Virus record (IMG/VR): IMGVR_UViG_3300042945_000144
Span: 1-21,997 of that record
Reading direction: 5' to 3' (one strand)
From: a virus
DNA: 21,997 bases
Below are positions 2,648 through 7,933 of this stretch, piece after piece. The stretch's first letter is position 1, and each line of letters starts with the position of its first letter. The translations under genes and the position numbers were made by a program. The notes under the pieces were generated by a model. The model saw nothing but the letters and a program-made list of their open reading frames with translations. It had not been told where the DNA came from and did no database searches.

Positions 2648-3907
2648 CTATACCCCCGATATTACATCCATCGGCTGCCAGTCCTCGTCATCAGCGTCTT
2701 CAAAGTAGCTGGTGACAGCCAACTGGTCGATGTAGGACAGCGCATCCGGCAAATCGTCGTGAACGCCTTGCGATGGGAACAAAAGAAGTTGGTCCACGAA
2801 TGTGTCCCAGTCCTCTTCGCTGTTCAGGACGATTCTACCGTGCTCGAACCGCCCCTGCAATGACCAAATCACCCGGTCTGTTTTCTTCCGGTTGCCGTGT
2901 GTCAGGTCCACGATGTGGCTGTAGACGTTGTTTTTTCTCATCAGGTCGGACAGATACGGCAGAACCGCGTTTTTCAGCGCTCCTCTTTCGATGCCGATGG
3001 ATAGAGGCCTGTAATCGCGCATCTTCATCAGTATCTTGGCAGCCGTCTCGCGGATGTCCCAACGTCCGTGCTCAATCTCTTTGACGAACCACTTGCCGTC
3101 GTCGGTCACTTTGACCACCGCAATCGCCGACTCGTCCAGCCTTTTCTTGCTGTTGGCCGCCTGCTTGGCCACTTCTTCAAACCCAGCCAAGTCCACGGCC
3201 ACGAAGTAGCTGCCATACTGAGGCTCTTCGCCGTACTTGATCCACTCCTCTTTAAACACATCCGCGCCAGCGTTGCTGAAAGATGCAAGGTATTCCTGTT
3301 TGAACGCGAAGGTGCTCAGGGTCTTTTTGGCGCTTTCGATCTCGGTGGGGTCGATCAGCGGGTTGTCTTGCGTCGTGAAGTGCCAGCTCTTCCAGTCGCT
3401 GTCCTGGTCGTCTTGCCCCAACTTCCACAGGTCGTGAAACCAGTTGCGCCCTTTTGGCGTGCCGATGAACATCCCTCGGCCCTTGCGGTCCGACAAGGAC
3501 GCCCGAATGACCTGCTCCCAAGCCTCTGGCTTGATGTCGGCCACCTCGTCCAGAACTGCGTAGGTCAAACTTACACCGCGCAGCGTGTCCGGACGGTCCG
3601 CGCCCCTGACGTAGATACGCGCTCCGTTGACCATCGTGATGTCCAAGTTGTTCACGTGGCTTGACTGGATCACCTCCCGTCCGAGGTCCAGCAGCAGGTC
3701 CCATATGATTTGCCTCGACTGCCCCATCGTCGGGCTCACATATAAAACAGCTGAACCCGGTGGGCACTTGAGCGCCTCGATGATCAGAGTCGTCGCCGCT
3801 AGTCTGCTCTTCCCACAGCGCCGCCCTGCGGCAATCACTTTGAATCTATGGTCGTCGGCGTAGACTTGCTGCTGCCACGGCAGGAGGGAGAAATTAAGGT
3901 CAGACAT
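2648..3907 (-). CDS. terL: Terminase large subunit (packaging ATPase and nuclease)
   Basis: This is the motor that pumps DNA into the procapsid and cuts it. In the 419-residue product the ATPase has Walker A AAGRRCGKS at 26-34, Walker B YAVLDE at 116-121 and a coupling-type motif FIGTPKGRNWFHDLW near 147-161. The C-terminal RNase H-like nuclease has Asp229 (VAVDLAG), Glu297 (IGIERGA) and an Asp cluster at 374-378 (HDDLPDAL). All expected catalytic residues are visible. An upstream ATG at 3916 exists, but it touches the GGAGG ribosome-binding site. The ATG at 3907, 9 nt after GGAGG, gives the start MSDLNFS and is preferred. That start overlaps the terS end by 8 nt. Portal follows after 21 nt, which is standard packaging-gene order. 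Confidence 0.95.
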   Translation of the reverse strand: MSDLNFSLLPWQQQVYADDHRFKVIAAGRRCGKSRLAATTLIIEALKCPPGSAVLYVSPTMGQSRQIIWDLLLDLGREVIQSSHVNNLDITMVNGARIYVRGADRPDTLRGVSLTYAVLDEVADIKPEAWEQVIRASLSDRKGRGMFIGTPKGRNWFHDLWKLGQDDQDSDWKSWHFTTQDNPLIDPTEIESAKKTLSTFAFKQEYLASFSNAGADVFKEEWIKYGEEPQYGSYFVAVDLAGFEEVAKQAANSKKRLDESAIAVVKVTDDGKWFVKEIEHGRWDIRETAAKILMKMRDYRPLSIGIERGALKNAVLPYLSDLMRKNNVYSHIVDLTHGNRKKTDRVIWSLQGRFEHGRIVLNSEEDWDTFVDQLLLFPSQGVHDDLPDALSYIDQLAVTSYFEDADDEDWQPMDVISGV

Positions 3908-4241
3908 CGGTAACATCCTCCGCCGGGATCACTTGAGGTTGTTCACCAAGACCTGTGATGTTGATCGTGATGGCGCTGCGCTGACTCTTGTCCTTCTCGA
4001 ACATGCTCACTGGCAGCGTCCTGTCCATGCACATCTTCAGCGCCGCCATCTGACCTGGGTGGTCGTCGTTGAGCGCAATCTGGATCACTTTCTCCGCGAC
4101 GTCCTTGCCGCCAGAGCGGATCATCAGCTCTTTGAGTTCCTTGATGCGTTGGTGATCCGTCTTTGGTAGCACCGCAGGCGGGTTCTCTGCGTACCTCTGG
4201 ATCGTCATCTTGAGCGGTCGCCCGCGTTTCTTAGGTTCCAC
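3900..4241 (-). CDS. terS: Terminase small subunit, putative
   Basis: This 113-residue protein lies directly upstream of terL and overlaps it by 8 nt, the usual place for the DNA-recognition subunit of terminase. The start is a GTG at 4241 with AAAGGG upstream. An in-frame TAG lies just upstream with no ATG between, so GTG is the best choice. It preserves a basic N-terminal KKRGRPLK segment whose RGRP core matches an AT-hook, a minor-groove DNA-binding motif. The rest is helical and charged (KELKELMIRSGGKDVAEKVIQIAL), as expected for an oligomerising TerS. Small terminases diverge quickly, so the call rests on position, size and DNA-binding character. It is the first gene after the 850-nt control and origin region, so its promoter should lie there. 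Confidence 0.75.
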   Translation of the reverse strand: MEPKKRGRPLKMTIQRYAENPPAVLPKTDHQRIKELKELMIRSGGKDVAEKVIQIALNDDHPGQMAALKMCMDRTLPVSMFEKDKSQRSAITINITGLGEQPQVIPAEDVTDV

Positions 4242-4281: not shown

Positions 4282-4329
4282 GGGGAGGGGGGTACATCAA
4301 AATTTACGGCAGCCGCTGACCCCCTCCCC
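4282..4329. repeat. G-tract/C-tract inverted repeat in the terS leader
   Basis: GGGGAGGGGGG at 4282-4292 can pair with CCCCCTCCCC at 4320-4329, giving a 10-bp stem with one bulged G and a loop of about 27 nt. Flanking T4293 and A4319 also pair. In leftward RNA it would form about 40 nt before the terS start. CATCAAAA also occurs twice (4295-4302 and 4332-4339). It could be a leader hairpin or part of a packaging or replication site; the sequence does not decide. Confidence 0.5.
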
Positions 4330-4407: not shown

Positions 4408-4496
4408 TTATGCACAGAAAAAAGAATACCAAACGCAACAACTTAAAGTTATGCACCGCCAACTGTGGATAAGTTTTGGATTTGGGCTGTGGATAA
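4408..4496. promoter_or_regulatory. Left DnaA-box cluster of the putative replication origin
   Basis: Two perfect 9-bp DnaA boxes on the minus strand (TGTGGATAA at 4464-4472 and 4488-4496, 24 bp start to start) are preceded by two plus-strand near-matches, TTATGCACA at 4408-4416 and TTATGCACC at 4449-4457. TTATCCACA is the strong consensus site for the bacterial initiator DnaA. An A-rich stretch (around 4417-4448) lies between the two variants. Together with the boxes at 4901-5101, this makes a two-cluster origin-like arrangement. The matches are certain; origin function is inferred. Confidence 0.7.
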
Positions 4497-4573
4497 CTGG
4501 GTCGGCTGGGAAAAATCGGGGGGAGAAAGTGCGAGAGGGGTGGAGGGTCCATTTCCGGGGGTCCATCGCCAAT

Positions 4574-4588
4574 TGAGAATGATTCTCA
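4574..4588. promoter_or_regulatory. Fur-box-like 7-1-7 palindrome
   Basis: TGAGAATGATTCTCA is a perfect 7-1-7 inverted repeat with G as its centre. It fits the 7-1-7 model of ferric uptake regulator sites (consensus TGATAATnATTATCA), differing in one symmetric position of each arm. It lies between the DnaA clusters, about 330 bp upstream of terS and within the leftward upstream region. It could bind host Fur or another dimeric regulator. The symmetry is seen directly; the protein is inferred. Confidence 0.45.
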
Positions 4589-4660
4589 TTCAACAATTCA
4601 TCTTTAAAACATCCACCCATCTCACCGTCACCAATGCCTCGCCAAGGGCTTTAAACGGGC

Positions 4661-4882
4661 CTACAAGCCACCATCATCCTGTGGCTGTGGGATGACAAGG
4701 ACAACGCTCTCAAGCGGCGTATCGGGCCGCAATCCAAGATTGTAGAAATGCCGATAGGTATCGATGACCTCCAAGAAGCCAGCGGAGATGTCGCCACTGC
4801 CTGCCGCCAAGAGAATTGCACGTTCAGCATCGCCAAGCTGGCGCTGGAAATACTTAACCGTTGGAGTTGCTTTGCCGACCAT
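4661..4882 (-). CDS. Small hypothetical protein inside the origin region
   Basis: This 73-residue leftward gene starts at the ATG at 4882 (MVGKATPTVK), with AGAGG 7 nt upstream. An in-frame ATG two codons earlier sits too close to that site. The protein contains a continuous amphipathic pattern (DAERAILLAAGSGDISAGF, then DTYRHFYNLGLRP) that reads like a real helical protein, unlike the nearby shadow ORFs. I do not recognise a named family. It lies between the two DnaA-box groups and downstream of the primase-helicase gene on the same strand. A role in replication initiation or control is possible, from position only. A perfect DnaA box (4901-4909) lies 18 nt upstream of its start, so DnaA could affect its expression. 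Confidence 0.65.
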   Translation of the reverse strand: MVGKATPTVKYFQRQLGDAERAILLAAGSGDISAGFLEVIDTYRHFYNLGLRPDTPLESVVLVIPQPQDDGGL

Positions 4883-4956
4883 CACCATTCCTCTAAAAAG
4901 TTATCCACAGGCTGAGTCCAAAAAACTCAGCAACCCCAAAAACCCCTGCATCGCCT

Positions 4957-5069
4957 TGACCCTTGACCCCAACCCTAAAGGGTTGGGGGTCAGGGAGGGT
5001 CAATTTTGGCGCTGTTTTGCCCCTTTTTGACCCTGACCCTGACTTTGACCCTAGGGTCATTTAGGGTCA
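4957..5069. repeat. Iteron-like TGACCC/GGGTCA cluster
   Basis: The hexamer occurs nine times in 113 bp. TGACCC is at 4957, 4964, 5028, 5034 and 5046; GGGTCA is at 4987, 4997, 5054 and 5064 (first bases). Two copies form a perfect 14-bp palindrome, TGACCCTAGGGTCA, at 5046-5059. Both orientations are mixed and spacing varies, so it is not a simple tandem repeat. It looks like a multi-site binding region for a sequence-specific protein such as a replication initiator. Confidence 0.8.
4964..4992. repeat. Long inverted repeat within the iteron cluster
   Basis: CCCCAACCC (4967-4975) and GGGTTGGGG (4980-4988) form a perfect 9-bp stem with a TAAA loop. After a single bulged G the pairing continues with TGA (4964-4966) and TCA (4990-4992), so the hairpin joins two hexamers. 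No T-run follows on either strand, so it is unlikely to be an intrinsic terminator. Confidence 0.7.
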
Positions 5070-5081
5070 ACATTTTAAAAG

Positions 5082-5101
5082 TTATCCACAGGTTATCCAC
5101 A
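5082..5101. promoter_or_regulatory. Tandem DnaA boxes overlapping the primase stop codon
   Basis: Two perfect TTATCCACA boxes lie 11 bp apart (5082-5090 and 5093-5101), both on the plus strand and next to the A/T-rich CATTTTAAAAG. The second, read on the minus strand, is TGT GGA TAA, the last two codons and stop of the primase-helicase gene. The site is therefore shared between coding sequence and origin. Confidence 0.75.
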
Positions 5102-7108
5102 GTCGTTTTTACGCAACATCATGGTACTCGCCTGCACCTCATCCACCATAACCCACCCATGTTCGGTGTTCTGAATCATGTCAGCCTGGAGCAGCGCACC
5201 GATCAGTTTGTCGTTGTAGGACGGGTTAATCATATTGCGCACGGTGCGCTCGGCGTTGCCGTCCTGGGCCAACTTATCCTTGAGGGCTGATCTGCTGAGG
5301 TAGGGCAGACCATCCCTGACTTCGGCACCGGATGCCCACCAAGCGTTTTCCCAAGTCTTGCGGTGGCCTTCGATCTTGGAGTCTTTCTTGGCGGCTGCGG
5401 CTGGGGCTTCGGCTTGGATGGGGATGGCGCTGGTGACGGGTTGATTGTCCTCGTCGTACCAGCTTGGGATGGTCACTTGTTGGAGGTCGAGATAGATTGG
5501 TTCGGCCATTTCGGCGTCTTTTGACTTGCGCTGCACCAGTTGCATGGGCTGGTTATCTTTGCCGGGGATGACGCTGATCTCTATATCCAGTGCTCCTCGC
5601 CAGGCGCTTGAGCCTCGGGCGCGGTGCTGGGCCTCGTCGGAGACGCCTGTGTGGTGAACCAGAATGACGGTGCAGTTAAACTCCATCATCAAGTTGCCGC
5701 AGGCATCCAACATGGTCTTGGCGTCTTGGGCGCTGTTCTCGTCTCCAGCAAGGAAGCGGTGCAGGGTATCGACCACCACGACCTTAGGGGTCTCGGGCAG
5801 CATCCTGATGTGCTCAAGCACTTTGAGGTAGCCAGCGGGGGTGTTCAGGTCACAGCCGTGCTTGGAGAGCCACATATTGAGCTTGCCCGATTTGTGGTGG
5901 TGCTTCCAAGCGGCGATTCGGCCACGAAGGCCGTGGTGACCCTCGCCGGCCAAGTAGACCACATGACCTGGACGCACCTTGTTGCCGCACCAGTCTGGGG
6001 TGCTGCTGGCAATGCGCAGGCACCAATCCAGCACCACAAATGTCTTGCCGCCTCCCGATGGGCCGTGAACCATCACAAGGGCTTGGTCCTGAATCCAGCG
6101 CTTGACAAGCCATGAGATGGGGCTGGGTTGGGCTGAGAACTCATCGGCGGGGATGAGCCAATCATCAGCGGTTGGTGCAAGAAGGCTGGCTAAGTCGTTG
6201 CCAGACTGCACATAATCGTTGGCGTCGCCTTGAACTGGTGGAACCACTGTGCGTGCGCCGTACTTGGCACTGGCCTGCTCGGCGTAACGCTGACCAACAC
6301 CAGAGGCGTCGTTATCGGCCACGATCACGATTTCTTGGGCTGGGCCGTGCATCTCGCGCAATTTGCCTGTGACGGGCACCAAGTTGCTGGCGCTGTAGGC
6401 CACTACGCAAGGTCGGTTGGTGGTCTCGTAAATGGTTGCCGCGGTGGCAAAACCTTCGGCCACATACAGTGGTCCAGGCTCATCCAGTGAGCCTAGCTGC
6501 CAGAACTTACCGCCAGTTTGCCCGCCGGGGTGATAGAGCTTGCCGCCTTCGTGGTCTATGTACTGGAGTGTGGAGAGCGTGCCATCTTGGTCATATAGCG
6601 GAATAACCAAACGCCCATCGGTGGTAATGCGTGCGCCGTGGCCTATAACGCCCTTGCGCTTGAGATAGGGATGCTCGGGGCTTGCCGCTGAACAGCTTGC
6701 CCAGATTTGCTCAATGGTGTTGGCTACAACCTCACGCAGCTTGGCTGTCTCAGCATCACGCAAGGCTTTTGCCTCTGTCATGCGGTGGGTGTTGGCTATT
6801 TCCTCAGTAGTGGTAAGTTTGCGGCCAATGTCGGCGCGAAACGTCACCTCTAAACCAGCACGCCAGCAACCGAAACGGCCAGATGGCACGCCATCTGAAA
6901 ATGCTACGTACCAACCGGGCTTGTCGATGCCTGGCTTGCCTTTGGTGCCCGAGCGAAAGCGGTGCAGCTTACCGTCCATCTGAATGTGATCTGGCGGCTC
7001 TAAGCCAGCCGCTTTCATGGCGTCAATGAGCTGCGCCTCTGGGGATGCAATGATTTTCTCTGGTGGTGGTGACCAAGGGCCGCCGAGGATGTTTGAAAGG
7101 TTGGCCAT
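5093..7108 (-). CDS. TOPRIM primase / RepA-like replicative helicase
   Basis: This 671-residue replication protein combines two enzymes. The N-terminal half looks like a P4-type DNA primase. It has a TOPRIM domain at about 212-300 with VAEG (Glu218) and the metal-binding ADND (Asp265, Asp267). The C-terminal half is a RecA-fold helicase of the RepA/AAA_25 type, with Walker A GPSGGGKT at 349-356, Walker B VVVVD at 443-447 and VILVHHTG at 481-488. The very C-terminus (around 580-650) looks like a winged-helix or regulatory tail. I see no clear N-terminal zinc-binding domain. The ATG at 7108 has GGAG 8 nt upstream and is 3 nt from the preceding stop. The gene reads directly into the putative origin, and its stop lies inside a DnaA box, which fits a role in starting replication there. 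Confidence 0.88.
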   Translation of the reverse strand: MANLSNILGGPWSPPPEKIIASPEAQLIDAMKAAGLEPPDHIQMDGKLHRFRSGTKGKPGIDKPGWYVAFSDGVPSGRFGCWRAGLEVTFRADIGRKLTTTEEIANTHRMTEAKALRDAETAKLREVVANTIEQIWASCSAASPEHPYLKRKGVIGHGARITTDGRLVIPLYDQDGTLSTLQYIDHEGGKLYHPGGQTGGKFWQLGSLDEPGPLYVAEGFATAATIYETTNRPCVVAYSASNLVPVTGKLREMHGPAQEIVIVADNDASGVGQRYAEQASAKYGARTVVPPVQGDANDYVQSGNDLASLLAPTADDWLIPADEFSAQPSPISWLVKRWIQDQALVMVHGPSGGGKTFVVLDWCLRIASSTPDWCGNKVRPGHVVYLAGEGHHGLRGRIAAWKHHHKSGKLNMWLSKHGCDLNTPAGYLKVLEHIRMLPETPKVVVVDTLHRFLAGDENSAQDAKTMLDACGNLMMEFNCTVILVHHTGVSDEAQHRARGSSAWRGALDIEISVIPGKDNQPMQLVQRKSKDAEMAEPIYLDLQQVTIPSWYDEDNQPVTSAIPIQAEAPAAAAKKDSKIEGHRKTWENAWWASGAEVRDGLPYLSRSALKDKLAQDGNAERTVRNMINPSYNDKLIGALLQADMIQNTEHGWVMVDEVQASTMMLRKNDCG

Positions 7109-7111
7109 TAA

Positions 7112-7933
7112 TTAGTCTCCACAGAAGCAAGCAATTGCCTCTTCATTTTTGTCGAACATGTCGGTTTGGTCTGCTGCAAATTGAATCATTGAGGCATAAG
7201 ATGGGCGGTCGGAACGAAATACCGCACCGCTTGGCTTGGACGCCAACGCCAACGCCTCCATTTTGGCCCACCAGATGCCGCGTTCTGGTTTTTCGGCAAT
7301 CAAAGATAGAACTTGTGCCCCGCCTTTTAAAAAGCAGAGATCACAGTTCCCGTGCATGGTTACCCCATTGTTGTTTGGAAGGCCAAGGTCAAATGGCTGG
7401 GCTTTCCAGAAAGCGCCAACATCTTCTTTTGTAATGCCAGCCGTAACCAATGGGATGCGGGATTTGTCAGCGATTTTGGCTGCTCGGCGTTGTTCATCTG
7501 CCCTCATTCCGACCCAATCCATCTGCTCGTTGTGGTCCCAGCCCAAAGATTTCAAATATTTGTGAATGGTGCGAATTTTCAACTCGGCAGTGCAAAACCT
7601 GGTAACTGGATTTGGAAGATAGTTCCTCTTCTTGATCAAAGCCTCAAATGGCTCACCGTTTCGGCTGGCAGTTTCAAATGAAACCCGCCTAAAAGCAGGA
7701 TCAGCATCTTGAAACTCAACCCAATGAATCTCTACATTCCATCGGTCTGAACAATCCTGAACAAAGCGCAAGGTTGCCTCATCTTCCTTGCCGGTATTAG
7801 CAAAACACACAATTGCCTCATCCGGCAGGCTCATCTGGTGAGCCTGAAGCACCCGCCAGAGCATGTAAGCACTAGTGCGGCCACCACTAAAGCTGATGCA
7901 GGTCGGCTCTGTGATCTTGAATGGGTCAGCCAT
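7112..7933 (-). CDS. PAPS reductase-like PP-loop protein
   Basis: This 273-residue member of the phosphoadenosine-phosphosulfate reductase / adenine nucleotide alpha hydrolase family has a PP-loop SFSGGRTS at 14-21 that binds ATP or an adenylated substrate. Cysteines at 114, 197 and 200 (CDLC), plus 269 and 271 (CFC at the C-terminus), resemble the iron-sulfur ligands of this family and of DndC-like proteins. Phage members are common, but their substrate is usually unknown. Possibilities are DNA or RNA thio-modification or sulfur metabolism; no dnd partner gene is present here. It starts inside the HTH gene (ATGGCTGA overlap of 8 nt) and ends 3 nt before the primase, so it is co-expressed with replication. 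The family is sure; the reaction is unknown. Confidence 0.85.
   Translation of the reverse strand: MADPFKITEPTCISFSGGRTSAYMLWRVLQAHQMSLPDEAIVCFANTGKEDEATLRFVQDCSDRWNVEIHWVEFQDADPAFRRVSFETASRNGEPFEALIKKRNYLPNPVTRFCTAELKIRTIHKYLKSLGWDHNEQMDWVGMRADEQRRAAKIADKSRIPLVTAGITKEDVGAFWKAQPFDLGLPNNNGVTMHGNCDLCFLKGGAQVLSLIAEKPERGIWWAKMEALALASKPSGAVFRSDRPSYASMIQFAADQTDMFDKNEEAIACFCGD

Follow-up and report, generated by a model that had tools for sequence, protein, structure and literature searches.

Does a dense group of DnaA boxes beside the terminase genes of a freshwater phage mark the place where its replication starts, and is it host DnaA that makes the start? The window analyzed here is the whole stretch of DNA studied, i.e., the entire 21,997-base record IMGVR_UViG_3300042945_000144, which is classed as linear in IMG/VR. 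Judged from comparisons of sequence, the part of the window with the boxes is very probably the replication start site of this phage. The box region is flanked on the left by the probable small terminase, large terminase, and portal genes and on the right by a minus-strand gene encoding a primase-helicase of 671 amino acids. The boxes and the genes around them are arranged as follows:

2648-3916: TerL (Pfam Terminase_6N)
3900-4241, minus strand: probable small terminase gene, overlapping TerL and in the small-terminase position, bounding the region on the left
4408-4416, plus strand: near-match DnaA box TTATGCACA
4449-4457, plus strand: near-match DnaA box TTATGCACC
4464-4472, minus strand: exact DnaA box TTATCCACA of a second, terminase-side cluster
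4488-4496, minus strand: exact DnaA box TTATCCACA, also in the terminase-side cluster and 24 bp from the box at 4464
4661-4888, minus strand: small conserved gene of 75 codons between the two box groups (around the iterons and on the terminase side)
4901-4909, plus strand: exact DnaA box TTATCCACA beyond the iterons as seen from the box pair, which is 181 bp away
5071-5081: A/T-rich spacer that separates the iterons from the box pair
5082-5090, plus strand: exact DnaA box TTATCCACA, 11 bp from the box at 5093, a conserved spacing
5093-5101, plus strand: exact DnaA box TTATCCACA overlapping the primase-helicase stop codon
5093-7108, minus strand: gene of the proposed initiator, a primase-helicase of 671 aa with a Toprim_3 primase, a RepA-like AAA_25 helicase, and a winged-helix-like domain at its C-terminus

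The five exact TTATCCACA sites claimed in the preliminary description were confirmed at 4464 to 5101, as were its two near-matches at 4408 and 4449, and a scan of the full 21,997-base record revealed zero other exact copies. From base composition, 0.12 sites per record would be expected by chance, and at least five within 640 bp has a Poisson P of ~5e-15; the frequency of once in 130 kb, which had been given per strand, really holds for both strands together. The region had also been described as having little coding sequence, with A/T-rich DNA beside the boxes. It is sparsely coding but not quite empty, as it holds the 75-codon open reading frame and its rightmost box overlaps the primase stop codon, and the A/T-rich DNA is present but modest, with at most 77% A+T in 30 bp; the spacer at 5071-5081 is a candidate unwinding site. 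No phage-encoded DnaA was found above the Pfam cut-off, the only matches being sub-threshold P-loop matches in a helicase-like frame.

Relatives were collected by a scan with the primase-helicase, which gave 80 viral loci and a further 16 in contigs of bacterial genomes or MAGs. The isolated phages that it gave were Salicola phage CGphi29, Alteromonas phages XX1924 and PB15, and Idiomarinaceae phage 1N2-2. The 75-codon gene was present at the same place in 38 relatives, with 52 to 100% identity, and gave no match in Pfam and PHROGs searches; the small terminase candidate likewise had no family match of its own in Pfam or PHROGs. An Rfam search found no known RNA family, a DNA search of the intergenic region against phages gave no matches, and a plasmid search returned partial-domain matches only.

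Several smaller features of the surroundings were also recorded. Directly upstream of the terminase genes, positions 4282-4329 hold an inverted repeat, GGGGAGGGGG / CCCCCTCCCC, which could be a packaging or regulatory site, and similar G- and C-runs occur in L010, L025, and L032. At 4575-4590 there is a perfect 7-1-7 palindrome, TGAGAATGATTCTCA, which resembles a Fur box and is kept in the close relatives L006, L007, and L013-L016; CGphi29 has a similar sequence, TGAGAATAATTATCA, 3' of its primase. A PAPS-reductase-like gene (7112-7933) lies between a Cro-like gene and the primase-helicase gene in the window, while the latter two adjoin each other in annotated isolates.

Between the boxes we found a set of repeats and stem-loops that the preliminary description had not mentioned:

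4957-5070: nine TGACCC iterons, some direct and others inverted; TGACCC clusters nowhere else in the record
4948-5014: stem-loop II, in which GCATCGCC pairs with GGCGCTG (conserved), with an iteron stem and an apical CTTTAG hairpin (CTAAAG on the given strand)
5027-5070: stem-loop I, built from inverted iterons

As single-stranded DNA, this element folded far better than shuffles of it (z of -6.7 and -7.0). Nearly all relatives share a core of ~100 to 200 nt directly after the primase stop codon. In it, short words recur in both orientations, together with a GGGGCAAA-like block and an apical hairpin whose cap is usually CTTTAG; most relatives also have a CGATGC-like block. Where the downstream sequence was long enough, almost every relative had this core element, even MAG contigs with identity as low as 35%; the exceptions were L062, in which the usual downstream element is lost or displaced and DnaA boxes occur only from 968 bp onward, and L090, which has no clear element. 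L132 and L133 carry the iteron element in a different order and have a second iteron-rich stretch beside a long palindrome (GGGACAAGGTAT...).

The words themselves differed widely, with about 16 across the relatives: TGACCC (the window), GCCCCC, GGTAAC, and GGAAC; GGGGACA (CGphi29), GGTTCA (XX1924 and PB15), and GGTACA (1N2-2) in the isolates; and CGGACC, CGTAAC, AGGACA, CGGGACA, GGGGGACA, CCGTACC, CGAACA, GGTATA, and GGTGCCA in MAG contigs. In 20 larger records, each word clustered only at the site 3' of the primase, which in three isolates comprises two adjacent stretches. Across the apical stems of 13 distinct hairpins, 98.1% of cells were paired, a percentage inflated by their having been chosen as hairpins; the informative part is the double changes, seen in 33 cells and matched in 0/500 shuffles. 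Shuffled and slid controls were far below the apical hairpins in both pairing and covariation score. The aligned sequences thus indicate that the arms vary by compensatory substitutions, the structure being conserved and the sequence not.

We then compared the DnaA boxes across the relatives. In the viral loci, the 1.2 kb that follow the primase stop codon contained 225 exact boxes (0.42 expected), and the remaining 576 kb of flanking DNA held 0 (2.99 expected). One or more boxes were found just 3' of the primase gene in 65 of the 68 viral loci with at least 300 bp of downstream sequence, and whole-record searches of relatives gave a few stray boxes, at background level. In most relatives the spacings around the iterons are conserved, with a pair 11 to 12 bp apart and a third box 179 to 182 bp off. 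Orientation and place vary by clade, and one clade has boxes only ~580 to 870 bp downstream. CGphi29, 1N2-2, XX1924, and PB15 have zero exact boxes, or one or two scattered ones, and keep the iteron/stem-loop element. The family therefore has a box cluster beyond chance, as a DnaA-dependent origin should, but boxes are not conserved in all its members.

Two further side observations concern the boxes of particular relatives. The Alteromonas phages L087 (~5600) and L088 (~5590) carry a single DnaA box upstream of the primase, within the divergent promoter region, and this lone box lies near their GC-skew minimum. In G005, the 33,904-bp record of L029, the second cluster seems to be split in two, with the DnaA boxes at 34 and 33,895 as its halves, which suggests that the map is circular or circularly permuted and nearly complete.

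Could the boxes serve a function separate from an origin? They might titrate host DnaA as a datA-like decoy, or be DnaA-controlled promoters on the terminase side. The second cluster (4408-4496) does lie upstream of the terminase operon, one clade has boxes only there, and a weak promoter-like site overlaps the box pair, although it was not above shuffle expectation. In other clades, however, the boxes bracket the iterons at fixed spacing, and the 1 to 6 boxes per genome would be few for titrating an abundant protein; we regard this explanation as unlikely. Alternatively, host DnaA on the five boxes could be the main initiator and load the phage helicase. The clustering in most relatives, the spacings conserved around the iterons, and the perfect consensus of the boxes in phages with no DnaA of their own above the Pfam cut-off would fit such a role. 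Against it, the isolated relatives retain iterons without box clusters, for which reason we reject the boxes as the core of the origin, and the boxes flip orientation or shift by ~600 bp between clades, making this rather improbable. Since they are absent, single, or scattered in the isolates, the DnaA boxes look accessory. Hence, of the phage origin put forward in the preliminary description, the origin itself is well supported here, and DnaA boxes as its core mechanism are not.

Attention therefore turns to the adjacent protein. The primase-helicase matched AAA_25 (E=3.5e-36) and Toprim_3 (E=4.4e-12) in Pfam and DNA primase in PHROGs, and the closest solved helicase by profile was RSF1010 RepA (1g8y, E=9.3e-6, profile positions 323-503). 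Two segments at its C-terminus are of interest:

5096-5386, minus strand: residues 575-671, the C-terminal winged-helix-like domain, supported by AlphaFold2 and covariation
5189-5293, minus strand: residues 606-640, the word-switching segment, which covaries with the iteron word

The AlphaFold2 model of the domain (pLDDT 86) has the order H-E-H-H-H-E-E-H, which fits a winged-helix topology. A Foldseek search with the model gave a best E of 0.096, which is not significant; winged helices were frequent among the top matches.

The iteron word and residues 606-640 covaried beyond the identity of the protein body (partial Mantel r=0.77, 0/5000 permutations, 22 proteins). This was clearest in pairs of near-identical phages. 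L045 and L056 share 97.1% identity over residues 1-560 and 22.9% over 606-640, and their words are GCCCCC and GGTAAC, respectively; L047 and L048 repeat the pattern with 95.7% and 20.0%. L074 and L068, with bodies 99.1% identical, have the words GGTAAC and GGAAC, respectively, and their DNA falls to 48 to 66% identity only at 0 to 200 bp after the stop codon, being mostly 82 to 100% identical on either side. Divergence within this last pair is limited to the iterons and the domain. At one position of the putative recognition helix within 5189-5293, most phages with GG-words have Lys or Arg, and the three CG-word phages with an alignable domain (L129, L130, and L135) have Asp; it is possible, post hoc, that this is a recognition rule for GG- versus CG-words.

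These pairs also bear on which protein reads the words. Within each of the two main swap pairs, the Cro-like protein encoded upstream does not differ at all and is therefore not the reader, and ORF75, the small gene downstream, was not found in the GGTAAC and GCCCCC clades. The C-terminal region of the primase-helicase is thus the probable reader as far as these comparisons go. Part of the covariation may be linkage, because the iterons lie within 200 bp of the codons of the domain. It could accordingly be argued that the iterons are operators for a replication or copy-number regulator and not an origin, the domain and word traveling together by linkage only. That all copies of a word change together makes linkage alone insufficient and calls for a sequence reader, and the only other regulator nearby, the Cro-like protein, stays constant; with L074 and L068 nearly identical on both sides of their iterons as well, we find this explanation quite improbable. 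A packaging (pac/cos) site for the small terminase, or a transcription terminator, is a highly improbable reading of the repeats and hairpins, even though the terminase genes adjoin in the window and the hairpins lie 3' of a gene, because the iterons go with the primase and not with the terminase (the small terminase of XX1924 is >5 kb off, and the iterons are still with the primase), no intrinsic terminator or terminator-like site with a T run was found, and a terminator does not need nine copies of one word.

A replication origin is further favored by the location of the element, which is fixed beside an initiator-type gene. The preliminary description had looked to a cumulative GC-skew minimum for support. 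In the window this minimum falls at 5158, and four members of its clade (G001, G004, G017, and G005) likewise have theirs at or close to the element; the skew of the window is not explained by gene direction alone, since the switch falls between same-strand genes. In other clades and in the isolates no minimum was seen at the element, so that GC skew supports the origin in the window's clade only and fails as a general proof. No match to DNA polymerase family A, B, or III-alpha was found in 16 records, and a host polymerase is therefore probably used. PMC6518143 and PMC12629253, which are on or mention isolated relatives, describe no origin.

Taken together, we consider it likely that ~4900-5101 is a self-encoded replication origin, that the adjacent primase-helicase is its initiator, and that host DnaA assists in some lineages. 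From the observed position of the element, its repeats, and the covariation of the hairpin arms and of the domain with the word, we infer the following course. The winged-helix-like domain would bind the TGACCC iterons just behind its own gene, as the covariation suggests. Binding would allow the RepA-like helicase ring to load and unwind the duplex, with the stem-loops and the A/T-rich spacer helping by being extruded or melted. The Toprim domain would then prime, perhaps at an exposed hairpin, and host polymerase would extend the primer. In the lineage of the window, host DnaA on the boxes at both sides would probably help to open the duplex, much as in plasmids of the P1 or pSC101 type; this accessory step is the least certain. 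Binding domain and iterons would form a cassette, swapped or changed together, that gives each lineage its own origin address.

How does this origin compare with known systems? It is a variant of a known Rep-ori kind, consisting of a Toprim/RepA-helicase/winged-helix fusion with a many-worded iteron and stem-loop origin and optional DnaA boxes. DnaA boxes flank initiator iterons in P1 oriR, pSC101, and F, but the initiator of these is of another kind, and boxes are absent in some members of the phage family. In phage P4, the helicase is of SF3 type and ori is far from crr. The phage studied here has an AAA_25 helicase and no SF3 helicase, which sets it apart from P4 alpha, a single protein with Toprim primase, helicase, and C-terminal winged-helix origin binding that has repeats at its origin (described in part in PMC4234260). 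IncQ RSF1010 has iterons and shares the RepA-like helicase by sequence match, and its hairpins serve priming (PMC4234260); it uses three separate proteins, RepA/RepB'/RepC, in place of one fused protein, and no separate RepB' or RepC was seen here. The primase-helicase ORF904 of pRN1 also has a C-terminal winged helix, with a stem-loop origin just downstream that is conserved in structure and not in sequence, and similar stem-loops have been noted in bacteriophages such as BIP-1 (PMC4234260). The phage element likewise is a downstream stem-loop of conserved structure and variable sequence, but pRN1 combines an archaeo-eukaryotic primase with an SF3 helicase and lacks iterons, as opposed to Toprim_3 and AAA_25 here.

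There are parallels as well with the Rep-iteron modules of SaPIs (Staphylococcus pathogenicity islands) and PLE satellites, with which the phage family shares multi-copy iterons adjoining an initiator gene and an initiator DNA-binding domain that covaries with iteron sequence. The C-terminal domain of SaPI Rep binds iterons directly downstream of its own gene (PMC7581432). The phage differs in its fused primase and helicase, the helicase being RepA-like (AAA_25), in the covarying stem-loop within the site, and in the DnaA boxes flanking it, the likeness being one of layout. In the PLE satellites of Vibrio cholerae, the binding domain of RepA covaries with the iterons of the origin and is exchanged as one module with them, as origin swaps proved; selection for this swapping appears to come from a phage nuclease directed at the origin (PMC8263062). 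PLE RepA binds through an N-terminal RepA_N domain, whereas the phage family has its binding domain C-terminally, on a primase-helicase; the family also has about 16 words, in full phages rather than satellites.

We tentatively suggest, as a possibility that goes beyond the origin itself, that this widespread family possesses a hypervariable origin-address cassette, in which domain and iteron/stem-loop element co-diversify into many mutually exclusive words and are swapped between near-identical phages. Host DnaA would be an optional helper, and the diversification and swapping would probably reflect the exploitation of shared addresses by satellites, co-infecting phages, or origin-cutting nucleases. 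From sequence alone, one phage family yields many origin words, each naturally matched with a binding domain, including pairs of phages nearly identical except for the origin/domain cassette. With such a series, the recognition rules of the initiator and the cause of address diversification (interference, hijacking, or superinfection) become directly testable, and it points to probable replication start sites in Alteromonas phages XX1924 and PB15, Salicola phage CGphi29, and Idiomarina phage 1N2-2.
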